Positions 1,584 to 25,053 of a stretch of 28,048 nucleotides of DNA are shown one piece after another (position 1 is the stretch's first letter; the number at the start of each line of letters is the position of its first letter). Origin of the DNA: a virus. The position numbers were made by a program, and so were the translations under genes. The notes beneath the pieces were generated by a model that searched no databases, was not told where the DNA came from, and saw nothing but the letters and a program-made list of their open reading frames with translations. Location: IMG/VR virus record IMGVR_UViG_3300042556_001502, positions 1 through 28,048 of that record; one strand, written 5' to 3'.

Positions 1584-2870
1584 TTATATCTCCTCGCCCC
1601 ATCCAAAAACCACATCACTTGCACCATTCACCGAATCGTTGGTCACGACGATATAATCCCCCCGTACCAAGTTCAGTTTCAAGTGATCCACCGAGAAGTC
1701 GTAAGTCGAACGTACAGCAGGTTCGACCGTCACGGCGTACAGGAACTCAAGGTTCGCCGCCGTTACCGCCGTGGCCCTGACAGCACCCGCGTTCATGTCG
1801 GTCGAGTCGGACTGCATGTAGGAGTACTTACCCCCATAGCCGGCCACCAGAGTTTCCCCTGTGATGTCACCAGCAGAACGGGTGCGCCATATCTTGAACG
1901 TACATTTCTTGGTGTTGTTGAACGACGATGTACGCAGGTGGATCGTCCTGGTATTCACCATCGTACCGATCACCAACGGGTTGTACAGCACCAACACCGG
2001 CTTGTCCGCGCCGTTGGTAGCCACTGCTGACGAGTACGCCGAACCATACTGCTCGTCGGTAGTTGTCCCGTTCTCCGAGGTCAGGTCAGCGCACCCTATA
2101 TGGAGCGCGCAGTTCGCCACCCCCGCGTCGGCAGTAGTTGCCTTGAATGCGAGCGGCAACGCCGGGTTGCTCATACTCAGTGCGGTAAGCGTCCCAAGGT
2201 TGCTGAACGTATGCACATGCACGTTGTTGATGAAGAACTTGTAGTTCCCCACGCCGCGCCACTGGTACTGAATATCGTAGATGTTGCCCTTCTGTACATC
2301 GAAGCCGCTCACCCCGGTTGTGGTGATGGGTTCTTCCTTTGTCTCGACCCCGATTGACCGCTGAACTGCGTACAACAGTCCATCAGACTTGAGCCGGAAG
2401 AACACCCCTGAACCTGTAGTCTGAACGCCCCACTCGCGGGTGCAGCCTGCTGCTGTTTTGTTCGGACACCACACCGCCGTCGAGAACAGAACCCCGCGAT
2501 TCGGTTGGTACGGAGGGCAAACACGGGACTCAAGTAGCAGCGTTGTCTTTCCTGCCGATGTGGTGAGAACCGCCGCACCGTCTGTGGATACGATGTTGGT
2601 CGAGGTATAGACCTGCGTCCCGCCCTCGTACATGAACCACATCTTCGCTGGGATGTCGAACGAGAACATGCCGTGGAACAGCGAGTATGGCAATGAAACT
2701 TTCTGGATGCCCCATGCGTCTTCGGTTAGGTCGCCCGTGCCTAGAGTACCGCCCCTTACCTCAACCCGTTGGCGCTGCACCTTCCCAACAGATGTGGTAA
2801 TTTCGGTGTTGTCGACATGAACGCTACCATACTCGTCAATCCCTGGAATTCTTACAAATGAGTCACTCAT
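1584..2870 (-). CDS. Probable virion structural protein (428 residues, beta-rich)
   Basis: This is a Gly, Thr, Ser and Val-rich protein with alternating hydrophobic strands over its whole length and no signal peptide or membrane segment. Residues about 140-270 resemble a jelly-roll or lectin-like sandwich (the WRGVGNYKFFINNVHVHTF stretch is typical of such folds), and the C-terminal 150 residues are again beta-rich. I do not recognise a named family. Its start overlaps the 3' end of the portal gene by eight bases and its stop abuts the GTG of the next gene, so it belongs to the head operon. A decoration, head-fibre or neck protein is the likeliest role. It sits between portal and scaffold, where P22 has no extra gene. 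Confidence 0.72.
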   Translation of the reverse strand: MSDSFVRIPGIDEYGSVHVDNTEITTSVGKVQRQRVEVRGGTLGTGDLTEDAWGIQKVSLPYSLFHGMFSFDIPAKMWFMYEGGTQVYTSTNIVSTDGAAVLTTSAGKTTLLLESRVCPPYQPNRGVLFSTAVWCPNKTAAGCTREWGVQTTGSGVFFRLKSDGLLYAVQRSIGVETKEEPITTTGVSGFDVQKGNIYDIQYQWRGVGNYKFFINNVHVHTFSNLGTLTALSMSNPALPLAFKATTADAGVANCALHIGCADLTSENGTTTDEQYGSAYSSAVATNGADKPVLVLYNPLVIGTMVNTRTIHLRTSSFNNTKKCTFKIWRTRSAGDITGETLVAGYGGKYSYMQSDSTDMNAGAVRATAVTAANLEFLYAVTVEPAVRSTYDFSVDHLKLNLVRGDYIVVTNDSVNGASDVVFGWGEEI

Positions 2871-5112
2871 TGCAAGGTTTCTCCATTGACTCCATCAGGT
2901 AACTACCGTCAGATTGTCGAACTGCGCGACCTGTCTTTGTCATTGCGCCTTTTCCATCGACTTGCACTGGAACCGTAATGTTGATCGGCTGCTGCATCGA
3001 AGCAACGGCTTGCAGTATTGACGCAACATCCATCTGCGGTTCGGCAGGTTCAGCGGGTTCAGTGGATTCCTGAGACTGTTGCGCCATCTCGGTAACACGC
3101 TGAACCGCATCCTGCTCTTGCAGTTGCAGATTCAACTTGGCAATCTGGTAATCCTTTGCCAGCGCATCCTGTTCGGACTTGATCGCTTCCTGCTGCGTGT
3201 CCATTGTCGCCATTTGCGCCTTCAGCGTTGCTTGTTGCGCGGCGACAGTGAGTTTCTGATTCTCTTGCCGCAACTTCTCAATCTCTCCAGAAGCGGCCTG
3301 CATCATCTGATCTTTCTGTTGAATTATCTGTTGCGCCTGCATCTTGACCTGAGCGACTTCAGGCGACGATTCCTTCTTCGCTTCTTCCGCAGCCAATACC
3401 GGAGGCGGAAGCAGCAACTTGGAACGTTCAGCAAACCGCTGCGCTTCCGGCCAGTCCTGCGCTTCCGCAATCAGGTCGCCGTGCGTCTGCCACATTGTCG
3501 GATCGGCTTGCGCGAGTGCAAGCATTCCGGCAGCAGATGCTTGCCGACTTGTCTGGTAGGAGGGGCCAACGTCAACCGCAACGTCATAGACGCCAACGCC
3601 TAGGTTGAATATCTGGTTCGGGCCTTGAGAAACAGCAGCCTTCGGTAGCGATGGATCAAGCTGTACTTGCTTCGCTTCTCCATCAATACCCAAGATTCTG
3701 ACAATCCGACGAGTATCAATAACCTTCGGCGCGGCGGAAATCAGATACCGGCCAGCGGAACGGATCGCCCTTGCAAGATTGTCGTGGTAGTGGAAACTGG
3801 ATACATCACCCTTGCGCGCTTGCTCCTGTTCCTGCACTCCGCTGGTGGCGTTTCCTTTTTTCCCAATCGACGCTGCGTACATGCCAAGCGAGGTCTGTAC
3901 CCCATGCTCGGCCTGCGACATGACTTGCGCAAAGCCGGATGGAACATCGGATGGGTTCTGGCGTTGCGGTGGCGGAACTTGTTTGCCGTCGAGACTGATC
4001 GGTCGGTAGTGCTGTACGCGGACTGATCGCGTACCGTCCCATTCATCCTCGAATCCAGCCGTTTGCCCTTCAGCGGCAACCCACGGAGCTTCTGGAGATT
4101 GTCCAACTCGCTCTGCAAATGCCGTCTGTGCGTAATCGTACAGGAGTTGAGCATCCTTCGACTTGTGGATCATCGACGTGCGGATTACCTTGCCGTCGAT
4201 GTTGTGGACATTGGCCCACACCGGGAATACAGGGATTCGGTCGCCGGGTTCTTCGCGGGGTTCTTCCAGATACTCCGCACCGTTGAACTTTGACCAGTAC
4301 AGGCACTTTTTCTTGACTTCCCGCGTTGCGATGATCGGCGGGACTTGGATTCCTTCTGCTACTGCCGACTGATATTCTTCGTCGTCGCAGATCGTGCCAT
4401 CTTCAAGCTGGTGGATCGTTTTCGGGACAAGTTTCAGTTCGTACAGTTCGGCAACCCTGATCTTTTCGCCGCACCAGTCGCCGTATTTGCTTCCTTCGCC
4501 TTCCCATGAGGTTGTTTCCTTGCCGGGATAGCGTTCCTCGTATTCTTCCTTCGGTATTTCCTCGCAAATCCAGACTTCCTTAGCATCCGATCCATCGACT
4601 TCGATATGCTCACCGAAATACACCGTCAGCGGATTGGAAATCGGAGCAAAACGGAAATCCTGATCGAATGTTCCGTCATGGAGATAGTCTTTCAGGATGC
4701 GGAAATACCCGAAACCGCCTCCAGTAGCGCATTCGAGCGCCAGGTCATAGCAGGTATCCGCGTTCGAGGCTTCCTGCCAGTGTCGACATAGGCCATCGTA
4801 AATCTTCGCGGTTTCGATGTCGGCAAAACTATCCACAGGCCGGACTTTGATCTGTGGGCGGTTCTGCCTTGAGTCGTTGATGACCTGCCGCTGGTATTGG
4901 GAGAGTTGATCTATCTCAAGGCACAAGCGTGGATTCGTAATGTCGCTTTCCCGAGATGTTCGGACACCTTCAGGCCAGTGGTCGACGTGCAGGAAGTGCA
5001 TGTCGTTCTTGTACCGCTTCCGGTCGTCGTTCCACATGTCCGCAACGCGGGTGAAACGCTCACGGAGAGTAGCAAACTCGTCTTTCTTGGTTTCTTTGGG
5101 CTTTGAGGCCAT
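2863..5112 (-). CDS. Portal protein, P22 gp1-like
   Basis: This 749-residue protein is close in size to the P22 portal (725 residues). The N-terminal half has typical features of that family: an early segment FLHVDHWPEGVRTSRE, the QYQRQVINDSRQNRPQIKV stretch near residue 90, and YDGLCRHWQEASNADTCYD. The portal forms the dodecameric ring at one capsid vertex through which DNA is packaged by the terminase and to which the tail attaches. Residues about 580-690 are a long Gln, Ala, Glu and Lys-rich coiled coil, consistent with the C-terminal helical barrel of P22-type portals. The start codon overlaps the TAA of the upstream gene (TAATG) behind an AGGA site. The position directly after terminase agrees with the call. 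Confidence 0.92.
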   Translation of the reverse strand: MASKPKETKKDEFATLRERFTRVADMWNDDRKRYKNDMHFLHVDHWPEGVRTSRESDITNPRLCLEIDQLSQYQRQVINDSRQNRPQIKVRPVDSFADIETAKIYDGLCRHWQEASNADTCYDLALECATGGGFGYFRILKDYLHDGTFDQDFRFAPISNPLTVYFGEHIEVDGSDAKEVWICEEIPKEEYEERYPGKETTSWEGEGSKYGDWCGEKIRVAELYELKLVPKTIHQLEDGTICDDEEYQSAVAEGIQVPPIIATREVKKKCLYWSKFNGAEYLEEPREEPGDRIPVFPVWANVHNIDGKVIRTSMIHKSKDAQLLYDYAQTAFAERVGQSPEAPWVAAEGQTAGFEDEWDGTRSVRVQHYRPISLDGKQVPPPQRQNPSDVPSGFAQVMSQAEHGVQTSLGMYAASIGKKGNATSGVQEQEQARKGDVSSFHYHDNLARAIRSAGRYLISAAPKVIDTRRIVRILGIDGEAKQVQLDPSLPKAAVSQGPNQIFNLGVGVYDVAVDVGPSYQTSRQASAAGMLALAQADPTMWQTHGDLIAEAQDWPEAQRFAERSKLLLPPPVLAAEEAKKESSPEVAQVKMQAQQIIQQKDQMMQAASGEIEKLRQENQKLTVAAQQATLKAQMATMDTQQEAIKSEQDALAKDYQIAKLNLQLQEQDAVQRVTEMAQQSQESTEPAEPAEPQMDVASILQAVASMQQPINITVPVQVDGKGAMTKTGRAVRQSDGSYLMESMEKPCNE

Positions 5113-6089
5113 TAGTCTATCCTCGGATTCATCAGGTCGCTCAGGGGGCGATATTCATTTGGATTCCAAGGCTTCTGCCCTGTTGGAACTCCATTGCGCT
5201 CAAGGATGCGGATCATTTCGGGGTCGAAGACGACGAAGTTTGAGCTTCCTTGACCGGCAGAGCGTGAGCCGCCGTCTAGGTAGCGGATGCCGGGGATGCC
5301 GTTAGCAAACAAGTCAGACGTAACTTCGTCAGGTTGCGCCCCACGATAACTAGAAACCATCTCTTTCCCTGTTTTGTCGAACTTATCAGGGTCTAGTTTC
5401 ATAATTTTTCGATAGTTATCAAGAGACACGCCATGCTGTCTTGCTATGATGGATTGGACAGCTTCACTTTGCTGACTCAGCGGCTTATCCCAATCAAGCA
5501 TTCTTGCTACTGCTTCGTCGGGGATGTCGGTTTTGTAGAGGATTCCGTTTTCCTCTCGGCTTGCCATAAGGTCATTTGACCATTTCACATCATCCTGATA
5601 TTCCTTCAGGCGCTTCTCAAGAAACTCCTTACTTACCGGTTGGCCACGCGTGTTATTCGGCCACGGAGTTGATCCGTTCAACCATCCTGTTATTTGGTCA
5701 ATATCTGTCTGCGCGCCCTTTGCGGTGCTTCTTGCGCGATACAGTTCAGGGGCTTTGGCGTTAGATATTGCTTCCTTGTATTCAGTAGCAACAACAGGAC
5801 TCTCTGCCAAATACAACCCATGCCCATAAGCCTGCGTCCCTTCTCCCGTTCCAATCTTGCCTAGGCTGAACTTGTCGAACTTGTGCGGTGATCCGTGATA
5901 TGCGATATGACCAACACCACCACCAATGAAATTCATCGGGTCTTCCCCGTATTCCTTCACTGTCTGCGGAATGTTTGCCGCCGTCATGGATAGGTAATCA
6001 GCGGGATTATTGACCAAATCAGACAGATTCCTGCCGACAACTCGGCGCTTGTTGTCCATCCAACTCAACAGGTCGGCTAGTGCGGGCAT
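5112..6089 (-). CDS. ADP-ribosyltransferase-like protein (ART-PolyVal type) in the head operon
   Basis: The 325-residue protein contains the core of phage polyvalent-protein ADP-ribosyltransferases: AYHGSPHKFDKF (His65), a Gly-rich turn, then YGHGLYLAE (Tyr93) followed by ATEY. A second conserved block near the C-terminus (residues about 265-298) includes GIPGIRYLDGGSR and NFVVFDPEMIRILERNG. This is the H-Y-(E/D) arrangement used to bind NAD; the third catalytic acidic residue cannot be fixed by eye. The N-terminal 60 residues are helical and may be a capsid-association segment. In other phages such domains are packaged in the virion and injected to modify host proteins; that role here is inferred from its place between terminase and portal. 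Translation is coupled to both neighbours. Confidence 0.78.
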   Translation of the reverse strand: MPALADLLSWMDNKRRVVGRNLSDLVNNPADYLSMTAANIPQTVKEYGEDPMNFIGGGVGHIAYHGSPHKFDKFSLGKIGTGEGTQAYGHGLYLAESPVVATEYKEAISNAKAPELYRARSTAKGAQTDIDQITGWLNGSTPWPNNTRGQPVSKEFLEKRLKEYQDDVKWSNDLMASREENGILYKTDIPDEAVARMLDWDKPLSQQSEAVQSIIARQHGVSLDNYRKIMKLDPDKFDKTGKEMVSSYRGAQPDEVTSDLFANGIPGIRYLDGGSRSAGQGSSNFVVFDPEMIRILERNGVPTGQKPWNPNEYRPLSDLMNPRID

Positions 6090-13849: not shown

Positions 13850-14332
13850 TTATATAGTGCACGCTGTGTGAAGTTTTCTCTTTGCCGAAATATATGCAGC
13901 GTGAGCCAATTCTGGAGTTGGGTATTTTCCTAAGTGAATATTTTTACCATTAACCCTTATTGATGCTCTCCATCTTCCATCAAGTAACGACACTCCGAGC
14001 AATCCAATTTTATTGTCACTTTGCGCTTTTCTCTGGTTTTGCCCGTTTTCAGAATATGTTACAGCGCGCAAATTCAATAGCCTATTGTCATTTCTTATGC
14101 AATTTATGTGGTCTATCTGGTTTGATGGAAAATGCCCATAAACATAAAGCCAAACCAATCTATGAGCCATGTACTCAACGTCATCTATTTTTATTCTGAT
14201 ATACCCGGTACTTGTTTTTCCTCCTGCAACACTTCCTACTCTTGCACTGCCTGGGCGAGTAACTTTTCTGGTAAACAATCCGGTTAATGGGTTGTATTCC
14301 AATAATTCTTTAACCCTTGCTTGAGTAGTCAT
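13850..14332 (-). CDS. HNH homing endonuclease with AP2-like C-terminus (copy 2)
   Basis: The 160-residue protein is a paralogue of the HNH protein at 673-1131: both contain HRL.WLYVYG.FP, then DHIN.IR.DNR, then N.QRKA, and end KRKLH..CTI. The AP2-like module (LLGVSLLDGRWRA, HLGKYPTPELAHAAY) follows the HNH motif. It starts within an ATGA overlap on the Cro-like gene and its stop is one base from the primase start, so it has been inserted cleanly at a gene junction. AT-richer than the primase, consistent with mobility. Confidence 0.88.
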   Translation of the reverse strand: MTTQARVKELLEYNPLTGLFTRKVTRPGSARVGSVAGGKTSTGYIRIKIDDVEYMAHRLVWLYVYGHFPSNQIDHINCIRNDNRLLNLRAVTYSENGQNQRKAQSDNKIGLLGVSLLDGRWRASIRVNGKNIHLGKYPTPELAHAAYISAKRKLHTACTI

Positions 14333-14511
14333 TTCTTCTCCTTCCTCGCAACCAGTTTCCCGTTAGTAACGGCCTCGATGATGCGCTGCGCCTTGTAGGG
14401 GATTTTGTTTGCGTTGATCCAGTTGCGGATTGATGGTTCCGTATATCCGAGAGCAACAGCGGCAGCTAGATTACTCCCGCCGTAATGTTCTAGCAATTGT
14501 TTAGGTGTCAT
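14329..14511 (-). CDS. Cro/YdaS-like helix-turn-helix regulator
   Basis: Sixty residues from an ATG at 14509-14511 behind AGGAG at ideal spacing; a frame extending 31 residues upstream would cross the promoter and is rejected. The LLEHYGGSNLAAAVALGYTE-PSIRNWIN pattern is a helix-turn-helix followed by KIPYKAQRIIEAVTNGKL, the ending typical of Cro/YdaS-type proteins that bind small palindromic operators. It is first in the leftward replication operon and lies next to a face-to-face promoter pair with a perfect palindrome, its probable target. Confidence 0.82.
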   Translation of the reverse strand: MTPKQLLEHYGGSNLAAAVALGYTEPSIRNWINANKIPYKAQRIIEAVTNGKLVARKEKK

Positions 14512-14559
14512 GGTGTCTCCTGTTGGTGAAAGAATCTTCAAACGAACTTCAAATTCTTG

Positions 14560-14587
14560 TTGACATGGCGAATGATATGGGTACAAT
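14560..14587 (+). promoter_or_regulatory. Rightward promoter of the cassette/recombination operon
   Basis: TTGACA (14560-14565) and TACAAT (14582-14587) are separated by 16 bases. Transcription would start near 14594, about 28 bases before the first gene. It overlaps the leftward promoter and the operator palindrome, so only one direction can be used at a time. Confidence 0.8.
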
Positions 14588-14600
14588 TCGTAATTGTCAA
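14572..14600 (-). promoter_or_regulatory. Leftward promoter of the Cro-like/primase operon
   Basis: On the minus strand TTGACA (14595-14600) and TATCAT (14572-14577) are separated by 17 bases. The start would be near 14565, leaving a leader of about 54 bases before the Cro-like gene. Two CTTCAAA direct repeats (14536-14542 and 14547-14553, 11 bases apart) lie in that leader. Confidence 0.78.
14583..14597. promoter_or_regulatory. Perfect operator palindrome ACAATT-CGT-AATTGT
   Basis: The 15-base inverted repeat covers the -10 of the rightward promoter and reaches the -35 of the leftward one. A dimeric helix-turn-helix protein bound here would block both. The adjacent Cro-like gene is the obvious candidate binder. 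Confidence 0.72.
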
Positions 14601-14621
14601 TCACAAAAAAGGATCAGCACC

Positions 14622-14813
14622 ATGAAAAGCCGCATCTACCGAGTCACCGAAATCGCCACCAACAAAGTCCGCATCATCGAGGCCACATCTGTCGCCCATG
14701 CCATGAAGCACGTTGCCGAGACTACGCATACTTGCGTGGTGAGCAATGGCGTGGATGCGGTGAAGCTGATTGCCGATGGGGTTAAGTTTGAGTCGGCGGT
14801 TAAGGGTGGATAA
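14622..14813 (+). CDS. Small conserved phage protein (63 residues)
   Basis: The ATG at 14622 follows AAAGGATCAGCACC and is 28 bases from the predicted transcription start. The RIYRVTEIATNKVRIIEATS opening, with a following helix AHAMKHVAETT, resembles a family of small proteobacterial phage proteins of unknown function. Its TAA stop forms the left core (TAAC) of the first attC-like site. Confidence 0.72.
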   Translation: MKSRIYRVTEIATNKVRIIEATSVAHAMKHVAETTHTCVVSNGVDAVKLIADGVKFESAVKGG

Positions 14814-14874
14814 CGTTTGAATTCACCGGCTCGCCGGACTTATCGGCGAGTCCGCGTGGAATGATGGGTTAGCC
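14808..14874 (-). repeat. attC-like site A1
   Basis: Outer cores GGATAAC (14808-14814) and GTTAGCC (14868-14874) bracket an imperfect inverted repeat. Plus-strand left arm TTCACCGGCTCGCCG pairs fully with the right arm CGGCGAG-T-CCG-C-GTG-G-AA once the three bases set off by hyphens (T, C, G) are looped out. Unpaired T and G on the 3' arm are the signature of the recombinogenic (bottom) strand of integron attC sites, so the canonical orientation is the minus strand. Confidence 0.72.
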
Positions 14875-14913
14875 GGCTGCCCACGAAGTCCGGCGACACG
14901 AAAAGGAACAAAG

Positions 14914-15072
14914 ATGAACCCGAACCAACGCAAGAGCACCGAGACACAGAAGCAATACAAGGAACGGCGGCGCGAGCAGAACAACGCAGCAAAAGGACGC
15001 ACCGGCCGCGTGCTCTGGAACTCGGCCCAGCGCGGCACTTACATCTGCGCAAGGGATGGCGAACTTTCGTGA
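14914..15072 (+). CDS. Hypothetical 52-residue basic cassette protein
   Basis: The ATG at 14914 has an AAAGGAACAAAG ribosome site. The protein has a very basic helical N-terminal half (KQYKERRREQNNAAKGR) and a polar C-terminal half with a single Cys. No family recognised. It is the only gene between sites A1 and A2, one gene per interval as in integron cassettes. Confidence 0.65.
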   Translation: MNPNQRKSTETQKQYKERRREQNNAAKGRTGRVLWNSAQRGTYICARDGELS

Positions 15073-15112
15073 GCATTCAAACGAGCCGTCACTGGTCGTC
15101 ATGGCTGGTGAC

Positions 15113-15181
15113 GGCTAACGTACAAGCTGAGGGGGCTGCGCACGACTTATCGCGCAGCTCCCTTCGAGCGCCGGGTTAGCC
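15113..15181 (-). repeat. attC-like site A2
   Basis: Cores GGCTAAC (15113-15119) and GTTAGCC (15175-15181) are perfect inverted repeats of each other. Left arm GCTGAGGGGGCTGCGC pairs with right arm GCGCAGC-T-CCCTTC-G-AGC with one wobble pair; T and G are unpaired, six bases apart. A further hairpin CCGTCAC/GTGACGG (15086-15114) immediately precedes it. Confidence 0.72.
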
Positions 15182-15198
15182 GGCAGAGAGGATGTGAA

Positions 15199-15486
15199 GT
15201 GAGTGAATTCAGGCGCGAACCAAGATACGTGGTTTTCAAGATCAAGGATGTATTCGACTACTTGAGCGACGAGCAAATAGCGGTGATTGAGCAGATCGGG
15301 CAGCGCATAGCCAAAGGTCGAGCCGAGGCTGGCAAAGCCCCGTTCAACGCTGTGGTGGTTGAGCAAGACTGGCCTGAGTTTGAGCCGACATGGTCGGCCA
15401 TCGAAGCGAGGATGACGGCTAACGTGGAGGTCACCGGCACTGCGGCGGCCTTATCGCCGAAGGGTCCGCGTGGACCGCAGGGTTAG
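15199..15486 (+). CDS. Conserved small phage/cassette protein (95 residues) with attC-encoded tail
   Basis: A GTG start at 15199 lies seven bases after GAGAGG. Residues 1-72 (with EPRYVVFKIKDV, LSDEQIAVIEQI and a VVVEQDWPEFEPTW block) look like a compact alpha/beta protein of a type seen in proteobacterial phages with unknown role. The last 22 residues or so (ANVEVTGTAAALSPKGPRG) are encoded by site A3: translation runs through the whole site and stops at the TAG of the right core GTTAG. The tail is therefore a by-product of the recombination site. Confidence 0.75.
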   Translation: MSEFRREPRYVVFKIKDVFDYLSDEQIAVIEQIGQRIAKGRAEAGKAPFNAVVVEQDWPEFEPTWSAIEARMTANVEVTGTAAALSPKGPRGPQG

Positions 15487-15488
15487 AA
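15417..15488 (-). repeat. attC-like site A3
   Basis: Cores GGCTAAC (15417-15423) and GTTAGAA (15482-15488). Left arm GGTCACCGGC pairs with right arm G-T-CCG-C-GTG-G-ACC when T, C and G are looped out; inner arms TGCGGCG and CGCCGAA pair less well. The spacing of unpaired bases is the same as in A1, A6 and A8. Confidence 0.72.
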
Positions 15489-15501
15489 CTCAGGGGACAA
15501 G

Positions 15502-15624
15502 ATGCTACGAATTTTCCTGATCGGCCTGACGCTGGCGCATACGCGGCCCGAACCGCCAAATGCGGCGCCATGCAACAGCGCCGAGACACAACGGCCCAAG
15601 CGGGCGCCAAGCGGATACGGTTAG
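15502..15624 (+). CDS. Hypothetical 40-residue peptide with hydrophobic N-terminus
   Basis: The ATG at 15502 has an AGGGGACAAG ribosome site. MLRIFLIGLTLAHTRP reads like a short signal or membrane segment, followed by a Pro, Ala and Arg-rich polar tail ending SGYG. No family recognised. It overlaps in another frame with a possible second frame (15570-15812). Confidence 0.5.
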   Translation: MLRIFLIGLTLAHTRPEPPNAAPCNSAETQRPKRAPSGYG

Positions 15625-15812
15625 TTACCGGGGACGCGGTTGTTTCGGGACGCCGCGCCCCCGCCAGCAAACCCCACGACATAGAGCCGGTGGCCCGGCA
15701 ACGGATGCGGGGCCACCCACTGTATGAAGAGGATGAAAACGACATGATGAGTTCTAACGACCCGAATTCAGGGGCCGCACGCGGCCCTATCGCGGGCGGT
15801 CCCTTGGAATGA
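15570..15812 (+). CDS. Doubtful 80-residue frame ending in attC-like site A4
   Basis: This frame overlaps the 3' part of the 40-residue gene and continues to a TGA inside site A4, so its tail (SSNDPNSGAARGPIAGGPLE) is attC-encoded like that of the genes at 15199 and 16412. The first ATG has no ribosome site; internal ATGs at 15743 or 15746 have a GAGG upstream. It may be a true gene with a hidden start, the downstream part of a frameshifted gene, or chance. The cassette would otherwise have a 130-base 3' stretch with no function. Confidence 0.3.
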   Translation: MQQRRDTTAQAGAKRIRLVTGDAVVSGRRAPASKPHDIEPVARQRMRGHPLYEEDENDMMSSNDPNSGAARGPIAGGPLE

Positions 15813-15822
15813 GTTGTTATGC
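15752..15822 (-). repeat. attC-like site A4
   Basis: Cores TTCTAAC (15752-15758) and GTTATGC (15816-15822). Left arm ATTCAGGGGCCGC pairs with right arm GCGG-T-CCCTTG-G-AAT with one mismatch; T and G are unpaired, six bases apart. Read on the minus strand it begins GGCATAACAACTCATTC and ends GGGTCGTTAGAA, close to textbook attC ends. Confidence 0.75.
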
Positions 15823-15827
15823 CGCAC

Positions 15828-15856
15828 TTGACTTGTGACATGTCACGCGCTATAGT
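15828..15856 (+). promoter_or_regulatory. Cassette-borne rightward promoter with palindrome in its spacer
   Basis: TTGACT (15828-15833) and TATAGT (15851-15856) are 17 bases apart. The spacer contains the perfect 12-base palindrome GTGACATGTCAC (15835-15846), a good operator candidate. It starts six bases after site A4 and would initiate about 16 bases before the next ribosome site. Confidence 0.75.
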
Positions 15857-15879
15857 GGTATTACACACAGGAGAATGCC

Positions 15880-16152
15880 ATGACAAACCGATTCAAAGAC
15901 CCGACGATGCGAGCCAACTATGAAGGCGCGGTGAAGGCTTACGAAATGCAGCACCGCGACCTGTTCTGGAACGGACAGCGGCGCGGCAAGGATGGCGTTA
16001 CCCACGGCAGTTCGCTGTCGACGTTTTTCTGGCGAGGATTTGACAATGTTGGAGCGATTGGCAACGGTGGAAAGTGGGATGCGGAAAGCAAGCGCACGCT
16101 GGTCTATGCCTACTACCGCGCCGGCCAAGACTGCGCGAAGGCGGCGAAATGA
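15880..16152 (+). CDS. Conserved 90-residue cassette protein
   Basis: The ATG at 15880 follows an AGGAG site, and the gene has its own promoter. The protein contains FWRGFDN (residues about 50-56) and ends YAYYRAGQDCAKAAK; Trp, Gly and Arg-rich with a likely C-terminal helix. Similar proteins (FWRGFDN plus YRAGQ) occur in proteobacterial phages; function unknown. It is translationally coupled (ATGA) to the next gene. Confidence 0.75.
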   Translation: MTNRFKDPTMRANYEGAVKAYEMQHRDLFWNGQRRGKDGVTHGSSLSTFFWRGFDNVGAIGNGGKWDAESKRTLVYAYYRAGQDCAKAAK

Positions 16153-16310
16153 CCGCCACGCCAGCAGCACAACGCAAGGCCGAGGAACGGGAGCGCAAGC
16201 GCGAGGCCGGACTGGTGCCGGTGCAAGAGTGGGTGCATCGGGACGACGCCGAGCGGCTGCGGAAATACGCGGCCAAGCTGCGTAAGGCGAGAGCGCGCAG
16301 TGAGGCATAA
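16149..16310 (+). CDS. Small basic protein, ribbon-helix-helix-like (53 residues)
   Basis: Starts with an ATGA overlap. The layout AAQRKAEERERKREAGLVPVQEWVHRDDAERLRKYAAKL is a basic helix, a short strand (LVPVQEWV) and a helical tail, as in small phage proteins thought to have ribbon-helix-helix folds. It could be the regulator that binds the palindrome in the promoter just upstream; that link is inference. Its TAA stop forms the left core of site A5. Confidence 0.65.
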   Translation: MTATPAAQRKAEERERKREAGLVPVQEWVHRDDAERLRKYAAKLRKARARSEA

Positions 16311-16388
16311 CGTGCTAGCTGACCGGCGCGAGCCGATAGGCGAAGCGTCCAATGAGCGAAGCGAATGTGGTCGAGCGGCGGGTTAGAG
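16305..16388 (-). repeat. attC-like site A5 (long loop)
   Basis: Cores GCATAAC (16305-16311) and GTTAGAG (16382-16388). Outer arm GCTGACC pairs with GGTC-G-AGC, the G being unpaired. The inner part is longer and less regular than in the other sites, with repeated GCGAAGCG strings, so this is the least canonical member. Confidence 0.6.
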
Positions 16389-16411
16389 CGCCGAAACTTA
16401 CGGAGAAAGAC

Positions 16412-16684
16412 ATGCACCCAAGAGACATGTTTCTGGCAGAAAGTGGATCGCTGGTGCTGGACAGCACAGACCAAGAGTTTGCGCTGGAATGGTACAGGCG
16501 CGGAGTAATGGCGGCACGACCACCAGACGTTCTGTTTGATGGGTTCGCGGTGCTGCAAGCTCTCGACAGCAAAGCCAAGGTACGAACCAGCGCGGAGAAC
16601 GTGAGCGATGTACTGGATGCGGTCGTGAGACTCATGCGCTCTAACGCAAAAGTCACCGGCGCCGAAGGCGTCCGCGTGGACTGA
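16412..16684 (+). CDS. Hypothetical 90-residue cassette protein with attC-encoded tail
   Basis: The ATG at 16412 has a CGGAGAAAGAC ribosome site; an upstream ATG at 16352 lies inside site A5 and is rejected. The protein has a mixed alpha/beta body (FALEWYRRGVMAARPPDVLF) and a C-terminal helix. Its last 14 residues, SNAKVTGAEGVRVD, are encoded by the arms of site A6. No family recognised. Confidence 0.68.
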   Translation: MHPRDMFLAESGSLVLDSTDQEFALEWYRRGVMAARPPDVLFDGFAVLQALDSKAKVRTSAENVSDVLDAVVRLMRSNAKVTGAEGVRVD

Positions 16685-16694
16685 CGGGTTAGCC
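16639..16694 (-). repeat. attC-like site A6 (shortest)
   Basis: Cores CTCTAAC (16639-16645) and GTTAGCC (16688-16694), only 56 bases overall. Left arm AGTCACCGGCGCC pairs perfectly with right arm GGCG-T-CCG-C-GTG-G-ACT once T, C and G are looped out. This is the cleanest structure of the series. Confidence 0.75.
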
Positions 16695-16718
16695 CTTCGG
16701 CATAAACAGGAGAAAGAA

Positions 16719-17084
16719 ATGAGCGAAACAGTAGACGCAATCTCGCAAGAATTCCCAGGTTTCTTTGTGATCGCCGCTATCACGCGAGCAAAGGCGCTCG
16801 GAGACAAGATCAACAGCAACCCGGTAGAAGTGACGCTTCTCGTTAACGGCGTTGAACTTCCGTTTGTAGAAACGATGAACGACATATACCAACGCATGGA
16901 GCGCCAGATTGACGAGCAGGCGCGAGAAGTCGCCGAGAAGATGGTGACGGAAGCGGGCCTCGATGGTGTGGCCGATGCTCTGCGCGAGGTGGAATGGAAG
17001 GTCAAAGACGCGCTCAGTAAGGTGGGGGCTAACGTCAGTTCTACAGCACCCACGCCAGAATATACCGACACCAAATCCGACTAA
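16719..17084 (+). CDS. Hypothetical 121-residue protein
   Basis: The ATG at 16719 follows an AGGAGAAAGAA site. The protein begins with an amphipathic helix, then a beta-rich portion PVEVTLLVNGVELPFVET, then a long charged helix (residues about 60-105) with heptad-like spacing. The tail GANVSSTAP starts with the string produced by an attC left core (GGCTAAC, 17027-17033), but no right half follows, so the site looks truncated. No family recognised. Confidence 0.7.
   Translation: MSETVDAISQEFPGFFVIAAITRAKALGDKINSNPVEVTLLVNGVELPFVETMNDIYQRMERQIDEQAREVAEKMVTEAGLDGVADALREVEWKVKDALSKVGANVSSTAPTPEYTDTKSD
17027..17047 (-). repeat. Half attC-like site (left core only)
   Basis: GGCTAACGTCAG matches the left half of the attC-like elements and sits at the gene end as in the others. 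I found no GTTA core with pairing arms in the following 200 bases. Probably a decayed site. Confidence 0.4.
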
Positions 17085-19078: not shown

Positions 19079-19927
19079 ATGACTATCACCGCAATGAACT
19101 ATGCAGCGCAGGCTGAAAGGGGATTTAGGGAGTTAGCTCCAATGGCTGTAAATCGCCAAACAGAATCAATCCTATGCTCTATGGCAGATGGGATAAAAAA
19201 CGCTGTGCATTTTTCACTTCCAGACGGAGGGAAGATATTTGATGATTACTTGAAAGGTATCCGAGGTATTGAAATACATATCCCATTCAAGGAAATTACT
19301 ATTGAGTTTTTTTCTAAAGACCCATTGAGTGAATCAAATTACAGAAAGGTTTTGATAATTGCTCAAGAGGACGAAGACTCGATCAATGTTATGGGATGTG
19401 TTTCGTCTAAGGCAAGCAACGGTGATTGGTATCTTGTTCCTTACGGAATTTCCATTCCAATATTGTGGGATTCTGATATGGGGACTACAGATGACGGTGA
19501 GGTTGGATTCAAATGCACTCCGTTTACTCCGTTTTTAGATGATTTTCAAAAAATAACCAAAGACGAAGAATCTGAACATTGCAAGCAAGCTATTGTTTTT
19601 GTCCCATATGTTATGGAATTGATTGAAGCACTATCATGTATTAACGTAAGAACAGAAATAAGATCACCTGTCGACAAATCAAAGAATGCCAGAAGGATCA
19701 AAGATGGGAAGCTCCCGATATACGAAACAAGGATTCTCACGGTAGATACTTCCGCGCATCACAACGAAAAACTTGGAATGACCGTGACTGACCGAGCATC
19801 AGTTCGCCAGCACCTTCGTCGTGGTCATATTCGTCGCCATCCTACTGCCGGAAACATTTGGGTTCAGTCCTGTGTTGTTGGATACTCTGAACTCGGCGTA
19901 ATCAACAAATCCTACGAGGTACATTGA
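19079..19927 (+). CDS. Conserved hypothetical phage protein (282 residues)
   Basis: The ATG at 19079 has a GGGGAGG site and lies one base after the ERF stop. The body is mixed alpha/beta with a long acidic stretch (DEESEHCKQ) and ends with VRQHLRRGHIRRHPTAGNIWVQSCVVG, a block that recurs in phage proteins of unknown function and looks like a nucleic-acid-binding end. It is distinctly more AT-rich than its neighbours, a sign of separate acquisition. No enzyme motif is visible. Confidence 0.8.
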   Translation: MTITAMNYAAQAERGFRELAPMAVNRQTESILCSMADGIKNAVHFSLPDGGKIFDDYLKGIRGIEIHIPFKEITIEFFSKDPLSESNYRKVLIIAQEDEDSINVMGCVSSKASNGDWYLVPYGISIPILWDSDMGTTDDGEVGFKCTPFTPFLDDFQKITKDEESEHCKQAIVFVPYVMELIEALSCINVRTEIRSPVDKSKNARRIKDGKLPIYETRILTVDTSAHHNEKLGMTVTDRASVRQHLRRGHIRRHPTAGNIWVQSCVVGYSELGVINKSYEVH

Positions 19928-23994: not shown

Positions 23995-24035
23995 GCGCCG
24001 GGTTGTGCGGAAAAACCTACGGAGCGAAGACATGA
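23955..24035 (+). CDS. Hypothetical 26-residue peptide
   Basis: The ATG at 23955 has AAAGGAGG, one of the strongest ribosome sites in the window, and the frame ends in an ATGA overlap with the next gene. It overlaps the previous gene in another frame. It is either a small peptide or a leader that feeds ribosomes to the zinc-ribbon gene. Confidence 0.45.
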   Translation: MATRTVDGGVEHMSAGLCGKTYGAKT

Positions 24036-24445
24036 GCCTGTTTTGTGATTCTGGATACGACCATGACGGCGCGGACTGGTGGTGGTATCAGCCGTCCGAC
24101 GATGCACCGCTGACCACGAAGCGCAGCCGAAAATGCTGCTCTTGCGGTGAGAAAGTCGGCGTTGGCGACACGGCGCGAAAGGTTGCGCGCTACCGGCCCG
24201 CGACAGAGTTTGAAGAAATGCGGGGTATCGCCAGCGACGAAGTGCCTATAGCCGACTGGTATCTGTGCGAGACGTGCGGCGATCTGGCGGACTCACTTTC
24301 GGAGCTTGGATTTTGCTACCACCTCGGCAACGGCGAAAGCCTGAAGCAACAAATAGCCGACTACCGGCGCGACGAGGGAACGCCGATCTTGACGCACAAC
24401 GCTAACGTAACCGGCCTTGCGCCGGCACAGGAGACAACGAAATGA
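24032..24445 (+). CDS. Zinc-ribbon protein (137 residues) with attC-encoded tail
   Basis: The ATG at 24032 follows GGAG. CCSCGEKV and CETCGDLA (about residues 35 and 82) supply a four-cysteine zinc site in a layout common in phage accessory proteins. The last 16 residues, HNANVTGLAPAQETTK, are encoded by site A7. Function unknown. Confidence 0.74.
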   Translation: MSLFCDSGYDHDGADWWWYQPSDDAPLTTKRSRKCCSCGEKVGVGDTARKVARYRPATEFEEMRGIASDEVPIADWYLCETCGDLADSLSELGFCYHLGNGESLKQQIADYRRDEGTPILTHNANVTGLAPAQETTK

Positions 24446-24487
24446 CAACACCTATTGCGCAAGGTCCGGTTGACGTAAATGTTAGGG
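24400..24487 (-). repeat. attC-like site A7
   Basis: Cores CGCTAAC (24400-24406) and GTTAGGG (24481-24487). Left arm GTAACCGGCCTTGCGC pairs without error with right arm GCGCAAGG-T-CCGGTT-G-AC once T and G, six bases apart, are looped out. The long loop holds the stop codon of one gene and the ribosome site and start of the next. Confidence 0.75.
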
Positions 24488-24741
24488 GCGATGAACTCTA
24501 CATATGCGCAACGGACTACGAGCATGAACTCGGCGAGGCCGCTGGTGGAGCGCCGCTGTATGCGAGCGTGGCCGATCTAAAGGCTTCACGGAAATGTGTG
24601 GCTGAGTGCGGGATAGTGGCGGTGCGCGTTGAGTTTCTGCGCATGGTTGAGCCGGGGATGCCCTACAGCGAACGCGGCAAGAAAACCCATAACGCAAAGT
24701 TAACCGGCGTGCCGCCCACAGACGCCACAAAGGAGGAATGA
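24442..24741 (+). CDS. Hypothetical 99-residue protein, starting and ending in attC-like sites
   Basis: The ATG overlaps the preceding stop (ATGA) and lies in the loop of site A7, with an AGGAG site. The first 15 residues (MTTPIAQGPVDVNVR) come from the site's right arm. The end NAKLTGVPPTDATKEE comes from the left arm of site A8. The middle is acidic alpha/beta (ELYICATDYEHELGEA). No family recognised. Confidence 0.68.
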   Translation: MTTPIAQGPVDVNVRGDELYICATDYEHELGEAAGGAPLYASVADLKASRKCVAECGIVAVRVEFLRMVEPGMPYSERGKKTHNAKLTGVPPTDATKEE

Positions 24742-24808
24742 CGTGGAACAAGCACAGAGCAACAACGAAGCATCGAGCGGCACGTCCGCGTTGGACGACA
24801 TGTTAGAG
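24687..24808 (-). repeat. attC-like site A8
   Basis: Cores CCATAAC (24687-24693) and GTTAGAG (24802-24808). Left arm GTTAACCGGCGTGCC pairs with right arm GGCACG-T-CCG-C-GTT-G-GAC, with T, C and G looped out exactly as in A1, A3 and A6. The loop includes an AGGAGG and the GTG start of the next gene. At 122 bases it is the longest of the series, which is within the known attC size range. Confidence 0.7.
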
Positions 24809-25021
24809 ATGCGCCGCCAGCCACCGGCACAGATGCAACAGGAAGCGGTGGACGCTATGACCCGAATGGCGGCCACCATCGAGAAACCGAAGACGCCTGA
24901 CGAATCTGTGTGGCTGAGCATTTACTGCGCGGTAGCCAACTGCTTCAACAGCGAGAAAGCAACGGCTGCGAGTTGGGCCGACGAAGGGTTGCGGGAGTTT
25001 CGCAAGAGGTTCCGCCTGTGA
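24743..25021 (+). CDS. Hypothetical 92-residue protein, start in an attC-like loop
   Basis: A GTG at 24743 follows a perfect AGGAGG. The first 20 residues or so are encoded by site A8. The rest has a Gln, Met-rich helix (MQQEAVDAMTRMAATIEK) and a C-terminal aromatic part (WADEGLREFRKRFRL). No family recognised. Confidence 0.68.
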   Translation: MEQAQSNNEASSGTSALDDMLEMRRQPPAQMQQEAVDAMTRMAATIEKPKTPDESVWLSIYCAVANCFNSEKATAASWADEGLREFRKRFRL

Positions 25022-25037
25022 TCTCTAACTTAAAGTA

Positions 25038-25053
25038 GACGACATTTGTCGTC
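25038..25053. promoter_or_regulatory. Perfect palindrome GACGAC-ATTT-GTCGTC
   Basis: A six-base stem with a four-base spacer stands in an 88-base AT-rich gap in an otherwise tightly packed operon. It could be an operator or a processing hairpin. I see no convincing promoter next to it. Confidence 0.5.

Follow-up and report, generated by a model that had tools for sequence, protein, structure and literature searches.

The record IMGVR_UViG_3300042556_001502 of IMG/VR, which we analysed over its whole length of 28,048 bp (the window), encodes the phage proteins portal, large terminase, primase, Gam, Erf and SSB and holds, in an early operon, a row of six hairpin-like elements (14,808-16,694) between small genes; the genes of the Erf and Gam homologues adjoin this row. 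An earlier note, made from the sequence alone, had read the elements as integron attC sites. We show here that they and two further elements downstream are attC sites. The window very probably holds two cassette arrays of reversed polarity with attI-like edges, set in a phage operon, and no integrase gene. It is a fragment; overlapping and related records suggest a genome of ~40 kb.

Eight elements of the window are integron attC sites

We built a covariance model, R1, from 28 attCs of arrays that lie beside intI in bacterial genomes, with no phage sites in the training set. The intI genes were taken from a TIGR02249 search of the bacterial families around genomes with a near copy of the window's attC; loci with 1.5-kb flanks were too short to reveal arrays, and longer regions beside intI were used. 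The training attCs were oriented by the intI gene, picked on structure alone, aligned and then modelled. On 27 intI loci R1 finds 164 sites, whose orientation, in our reading of the table, is as intI predicts in all but one, and it also recovers the published attC clusters of phages TJE1, H101/PH101 and MW202573. Its matches at E <= 0.5 in 361 kb of phage contigs are arrays of this kind or single attCs, and 12 of 28 related records have no match at all.

Applied to the window, R1 matches eight attCs, all on the minus strand, with E values from 2.7e-11 to 4.2e-4 (Table 1). Six are the elements of the earlier note, each found where it had placed them. The count of six thus holds for this first array and falls short for the window, as a second array (24394-25049), with two attCs, start codons in their loops and a strong attI-like end, had been overlooked. 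The elements have core boxes (RYYYAAC ... GTTRRRY) and L''/L' arms with extrahelical bases, and the unpaired G and T noticed earlier on the plus strand are those predicted for an attC bottom strand. Folded as single-stranded DNA, the plus strand is more stable than its shuffles for five of the six first-array sites (z -1.9 to -3.4), A5 being no better than its shuffles (z +0.3), and its fold energy lies below that of the minus strand for all six, which fits the expectation for an attC bottom strand. No Rfam family matches the elements. Altogether, these data show that the eight elements are integron attC sites, as the structural signature had suggested.

Core boxes delimit the cassettes

Integration of a cassette splits the core box at G^TT, which should leave each attC with an outer box that agrees with the one at the opposite end of the cassette to which this attC belongs. 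We thus read neighbouring attCs (n and n+1) on the gene strand and compared the right box of the former with the left box of the latter at the three variable bases. Exact reverse complements occur in 40 of 58 neighbouring boxes of a first set (82 sites in 15 phage records, the window among them; random pairs 11.5%) and in 56 of 75 of an independent second set (random pairs 18.6%), that is, in 96 of 133 pooled, with chance at 12-19%. As controls, the two boxes of one attC match in 14/82 and 25/97 cases, and the opposite assignment of units gives 8/58 and 15/75 in the first and second set, respectively. Within the window, the first array matches at all five neighbours and the second does not (two of the three variable bases). 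The complementarity of neighbouring boxes shows that the cassette consists of an attC and the gene that follows it when the gene strand is read 5' to 3'. The attCs separate small cassettes, as had been claimed, and do so in the early operon of the phage.

The window's cassette genes are small; one falls into the phage family phrog_7810, and Pfam gives no function for any of them. Of 74 cassette genes, 14 have their called start codon within an attC. The second array of the window offers the clearest case: in the loop of B1, gene 24032-24445 stops and gene 24442-24741 starts within the letters ATGA, so that both proteins have attC-encoded ends. Related arrays encode N6/N4 DNA methyltransferases (in several phages), an RNA ligase and MazG, and possibly a Lar-like restriction-alleviation protein (sub-threshold match), and these predicted functions are consistent with counter-defence. 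Record G017 (37.9 kb) carries four related DNA methyltransferase genes of family F3, most of them as separate cassettes.

Phage cassette genes run antisense to attC

All cassette genes of the window lie on the plus strand and are thus antisense to attC, and not sense to it as in the bacterial layout. Genes were called with our own hexamer and ribosome-binding-site caller, and published phages were scored by their deposited annotation. In the first set, 162 gene-attC pairs are antisense and one is sense; in G017, which has arrays on two divergent operons, the orientation of the attCs switches along with the operon. For the second set, IMG/VR was scanned with two further attC patterns on both strands to reduce the bias towards relatives. 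Leaving out L178 (full intI) and L029 (intI), it yields 167 antisense and five sense pairs, four of the latter in L174. Both sets together thus comprise 329 antisense and six sense gene-attC pairs. Counted by integrase-free IMG/VR record (L029 removed, L186 and L188 merged), 34 of 35 are antisense and one, L174, is sense; some of these records are fragments or nearly identical to another. In bacterial integrons, a caller of the same kind gives 191 sense and 15 antisense pairs. According to the deposited annotation, the cassette genes of H101 and MW202573 are antisense to attC, those of TJE1 sense.

L174 (G620), which encodes a phage tail protein, is the sole integrase-free IMG/VR record found with sense cassettes. 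L182, an IMG/VR record whose identifier is styled like that of an isolate genome, has nine attCs in a reversed array that ends in an attI-like edge; it may be the prophage of an isolate and as such a route to a cultured host. An antisense cassette is also found in L116, a bacterial integron with intI (14207-14404, plus strand); its gene matches phrog_12588 and is 60% identical over 58 aa to the phage cassette gene at 5236-5637 of G014, marking it as a phage-type cassette within a bacterial integron.

Most arrays end in attI-like sites

Beyond the last attC, we find an exact copy of its box, as the last cassette must end there. In most arrays, this box is followed by a motif that also precedes the first cassette in bacterial integrons, such as GTGTCTACTTTTA-GTTAGGC in L107 and GGGTCTACTTATA-GTTAGCC in L114; the array edge of G426 reads GGGTCTACTTCAC-GTTAGCC. 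We scored 2657 GTTRRR-type sites of 15 phage contigs with a position weight matrix (PWM) of 11 bacterial attIs, from which the box was excluded, and array edges fill places 1-7. Scores above 8 are reached by 9 of the 16 edges in the second set. The maximum in array-free relatives is 4.4, and the expected empty site in L015 and L016 carries no attI motif. In published phages of other hosts, the edges do not match the motif, as expected if attI follows the integrase of the host. In the window, a putative attI thus adjoins each array, as attI adjoins the first cassette of a complete integron.

Cassettes are exchanged between phages at the core box

The window shares a backbone of primase, F6, F7, F8 and beyond with G022/G425, G006, G007 and G008, family F6 being common to all of these records. 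Within this conserved backbone, the content of the F6-F7 interval differs in each relative, except for near-same strains or single common cassettes. According to the earlier note, ordinary intergenic hairpins would stay at fixed positions with unchanged genes in related phages, which is not what the relatives show.

In G007 and G008, the 3,074 bp that lead to the first core box are 99.2% identical and the 6,430 bp that begin with the core box of the attI-like edge 98.6%. The stretch enclosed by these flanks holds unrelated cassettes, with 10 attCs in G007 and 5 in G008. The similarity of G006 and G008 ends at the same base. Moreover, cassette 3 of the window is also present in the otherwise unrelated phage G017, with a core box at either end of the shared stretch, and a cassette gene of family F35, shared by the second array of the window and the first array of G022, ends at the core box in both. 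These comparisons show that phages gain and lose cassettes and exchange them with one another, the crossover lying in the core site (RYYYAA^C on the gene strand, that is, G^TTRRRY on the top strand) and that the first array spans from a fixed phage gene to the attI-like site.

No integron integrase is found in the phage records

A search for PF00589 finds no match in the window record, in agreement with the earlier statement that no integron integrase is visible, and none in 18 of 19 phage records, only G013 having one. The relatives of 37-40 kb (G022, G006 and G007) also have none. TIGR02249 has no match above cut-off in the counted phage records, only in records with a bacterial-type intI. 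Thus, the intI that a complete integron would have is absent from the window record. Among sampled genomes of related bacterial groups, 88 of 201 and 81 of 200 (~40%) have an integron integrase. A portal search for integrated relatives returned only distant homologues (33-38%).

Table 1. Arrays of the window and adjoining features, with two published phage arrays (positions in their own records).
Feature	Position	Strand	Remarks
Divergent transcription-regulator-like gene	14329..14511	-	backbone family F32; phrog_409 match on longer open reading frame 14329-14604
Promoter-like site, sigma-70-like	14560..14587	+	TTGACA-16-TACAAT, 11/12; consensus match only; upstream of first gene and array
First operon gene, 63 aa	14622..14813	+	backbone family F6; stop codon within first core box
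attC A1	14808..14874	- (top strand = minus)	R1 48.8 bits, E 2.1e-10
Cassette 1 gene, 52 aa	14914..15072	+	unit 14814-15118
attC A2	15113..15181	-	R1 52.3 bits, E 2.7e-11
Cassette 2 gene, 95 aa	15199..15486	+	phrog_7810, E 6e-22; unit 15119-15422
attC A3	15417..15488	-	R1 51.5 bits, E 4.4e-11
Cassette 3	15423..15757		recurs at 84.8% in G017 19417-19762
attC A4	15752..15822	-	R1 37.2 bits, E 1.9e-7
Promoter-like match ahead of cassette 4 genes	15828-15856		
Cassette 4, two overlapping genes	15880..16310	+	15880-16152 and 16149-16310; unit 15758-16310
attC A5	16305..16388	-	R1 24.2 bits, E 4.2e-4; weakest member, long loop
Cassette 5 gene as called	16352..16684	+	start codon within A5; alternative ATG 16412; unit 16311-16644
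attC A6	16639..16694	-	R1 32.7 bits, E 2.8e-6
Cassette 6 gene, 121 aa	16719..17084	+	unit 16645-17032; frame runs on beyond array edge
First-array edge	17027..17053	-	exact last-box copy, then weaker attI-like motif; PWM rank 14/2657
attC B1, second array	24394..24487	-	R1 31.8 bits, E 4.7e-6
Second-array cassette gene, 99 aa	24442..24741	+	starts in B1 loop, ends within B2; unit 24400-24692
attC B2, second array	24687..24808	-	R1 27.1 bits, E 7.8e-5
Second-array cassette gene, 92 aa	24743..25021	+	GTG start 24743 in B2 loop; unit 24693-25028
attI-like site, second-array end	25023..25049	-	GTCGTCTACTTTAA-GTTAGAG; rank 4/2657 with bacterial attI PWM
Array of L165 (Pseudoalteromonas phage H101)	26529-27987		published phage; antisense genes
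Array of L167 (MW202573)	2069-3738		published phage; antisense genes

Outside the arrays, the window holds two HNH endonuclease genes of one family (phrog_99; 673-1131 and 13850-14332, minus strand), one of which is inserted between the primase and the regulator. The second (13850-14332) resembles, at the DNA level, HNH genes found in T5-like phages.

Discussion

Since no integron integrase was found, recombination in trans by a host IntI is the best explanation for the exchange of cassettes; we infer the integrase, the expression and the host alike. In the bacterial layout, the cassette promoter Pc reads away from attI, and the phage arrangement is its mirror image. We thus propose that the IntI of an integron-bearing host would act in trans on the folded bottom strand, which is the coding strand of the phage, and also on the attI-like site of the phage. 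New cassettes would then enter at attI, which lies at the array's 3' end, distal to the promoter. The phage promoter, for which the promoter-like site at 14560-14587 is the candidate, would read the array from the side opposite attI; genes must then be antisense to attC for expression. By such cassette exchange, phages would swap small accessory genes. On balance, we favour the wider view that many phages carry integrase-less integrons, composed of attI and reversed cassettes, as a pool that may in part serve counter-defence and that host integrases would exchange between unrelated phages; bacterial integrons may serve as a silent relay.

Several observations weigh against this mechanism or limit it. 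Neither an integrase-dependent event nor an identified host is among the observations, the function of the attI-like sites is judged by their sequence, and the edges of G022, G013 and several arrays of the second set are unlike attI. Sense-oriented exceptions exist (TJE1 and L174), and the gene calls are our own except for the published phages. The window is a fragment beyond which an integrase may lie, yet its 37-40 kb relatives have none. The breakpoint between G006 and G007 lies 6 nt past the attC, off the crossover, and homologous recombination thus probably acts as well. Finally, the array swap is known from metagenomic assemblies; the sequence common to the junctions, however, is only the 7-bp box, which is too short for an assembly join and argues against an artefact.

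The most serious alternative, though an unlikely one, is that the sites, though true attCs, are inactive relics of captured bacterial cassettes, the variation between phages being due to ordinary homologous recombination that uses the attCs as short homology. The Erf and Gam homologues encoded beside the array would suit such a process, as would the start of the G006/G007 divergence past the attC and the confinement of some phage-phage similarities to the attC. Several breakpoints, however, coincide precisely with the 7-bp core box, past which homology does not extend, and the complementarity of neighbouring boxes, which decay or homologous exchange within the attC would erase, is intact. Moreover, captured bacterial arrays should be sense, whereas the phage arrays are antisense, and the attI-like edges have been retained. 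We also regard it as very improbable that the hairpins serve mRNA stability, translation control or termination and resemble attCs by convergence. While their regular spacing ahead of genes, some with the start codon in the loop, could be read in this way, convergence does not predict the covariance match, the core boxes, their complementarity, the cassette boundaries or the attI-like edges, and terminators are not in excess in the array region. That the contigs are bacterial integrons misassigned as viral is scarcely credible, and for the window excluded by its structural genes: IMG/VR does contain L178/G624, with a full intI and sense cassettes, and L029/G015, with an intI, both likely host DNA or a provirus boundary, but the window encodes the phage proteins listed above, its relatives retain the phage backbone on both flanks of the array, and the published genomes of H101 and MW202573 have the reversed layout too.

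Reversed cassettes with attI-like ends can be set against three known kinds of arrangement. Sedentary chromosomal integrons of Betaproteobacteria have attCs of the same family, with near matches in a Sulfuriferula genome with intI and on a Serpentinimonas plasmid, and the same attI motif as the phage arrays; unlike them, the phage arrays have no intI, and the phage genes point towards attI, not away from it. The plasmid matches of Serpentinimonas and Shewanella are single attC-like sites with no annotated integron integrase in view, and were set aside. The window also resembles a cluster of attC sites lacking integron-integrases (CALIN), as the earlier note had proposed: two or more attCs lie within 4 kb with no intI, to the extent that the incomplete record tells. 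This part of the proposal stands, whereas the arrays go beyond a CALIN in that they end in attI-like sites, carry reversed genes, which the phage operon reads starting at the distal end, and have recently been exchanged. Like phage moron or variable early-gene regions, finally, the arrays place variable small genes between conserved backbone genes, but every gene of the arrays forms a unit of its own, exactly delimited and equipped with a recombination site.

The note's view that such arrays are not normal in phage genomes was too strong. According to the available part of the report by Qi et al. 2023 (PMC9892861), a screen of 10,705 phage genomes gave 17 CALINs, and IntI1 recombined five of six tested phage attCs into attI1; sites of phages TJE1 and PH101 were tested in that work. 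The phage CALINs described there (TJE1, PH101/H101, P12002L and MW202573) are likewise attC clusters without intI, and that part of the report mentions no antisense genes, no attI in the arrays of virulent phages and no related phages that have exchanged cassettes. The open-licence literature yielded no paper on reversed polarity, attI sites of virulent phages or the swapping of cassettes between phages. Thus, CALINs in phages have been published, whereas the reversed polarity, the attI-like sites and the array swap appear to be new.

If the proposed mechanism is true, the isolated CALINs of phages become instances of a general mechanism by which accessory genes, including those for anti-restriction, are reassorted. 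An enzyme of the host would carry out site-specific recombination at a dedicated site and leave the phage operon undisturbed, and the reversed polarity would explain how cassettes can be expressed in the phage and silent in a host integron. The mechanism would also make direct predictions as to the base and the strand at which recombination occurs and the order in which cassettes are acquired.

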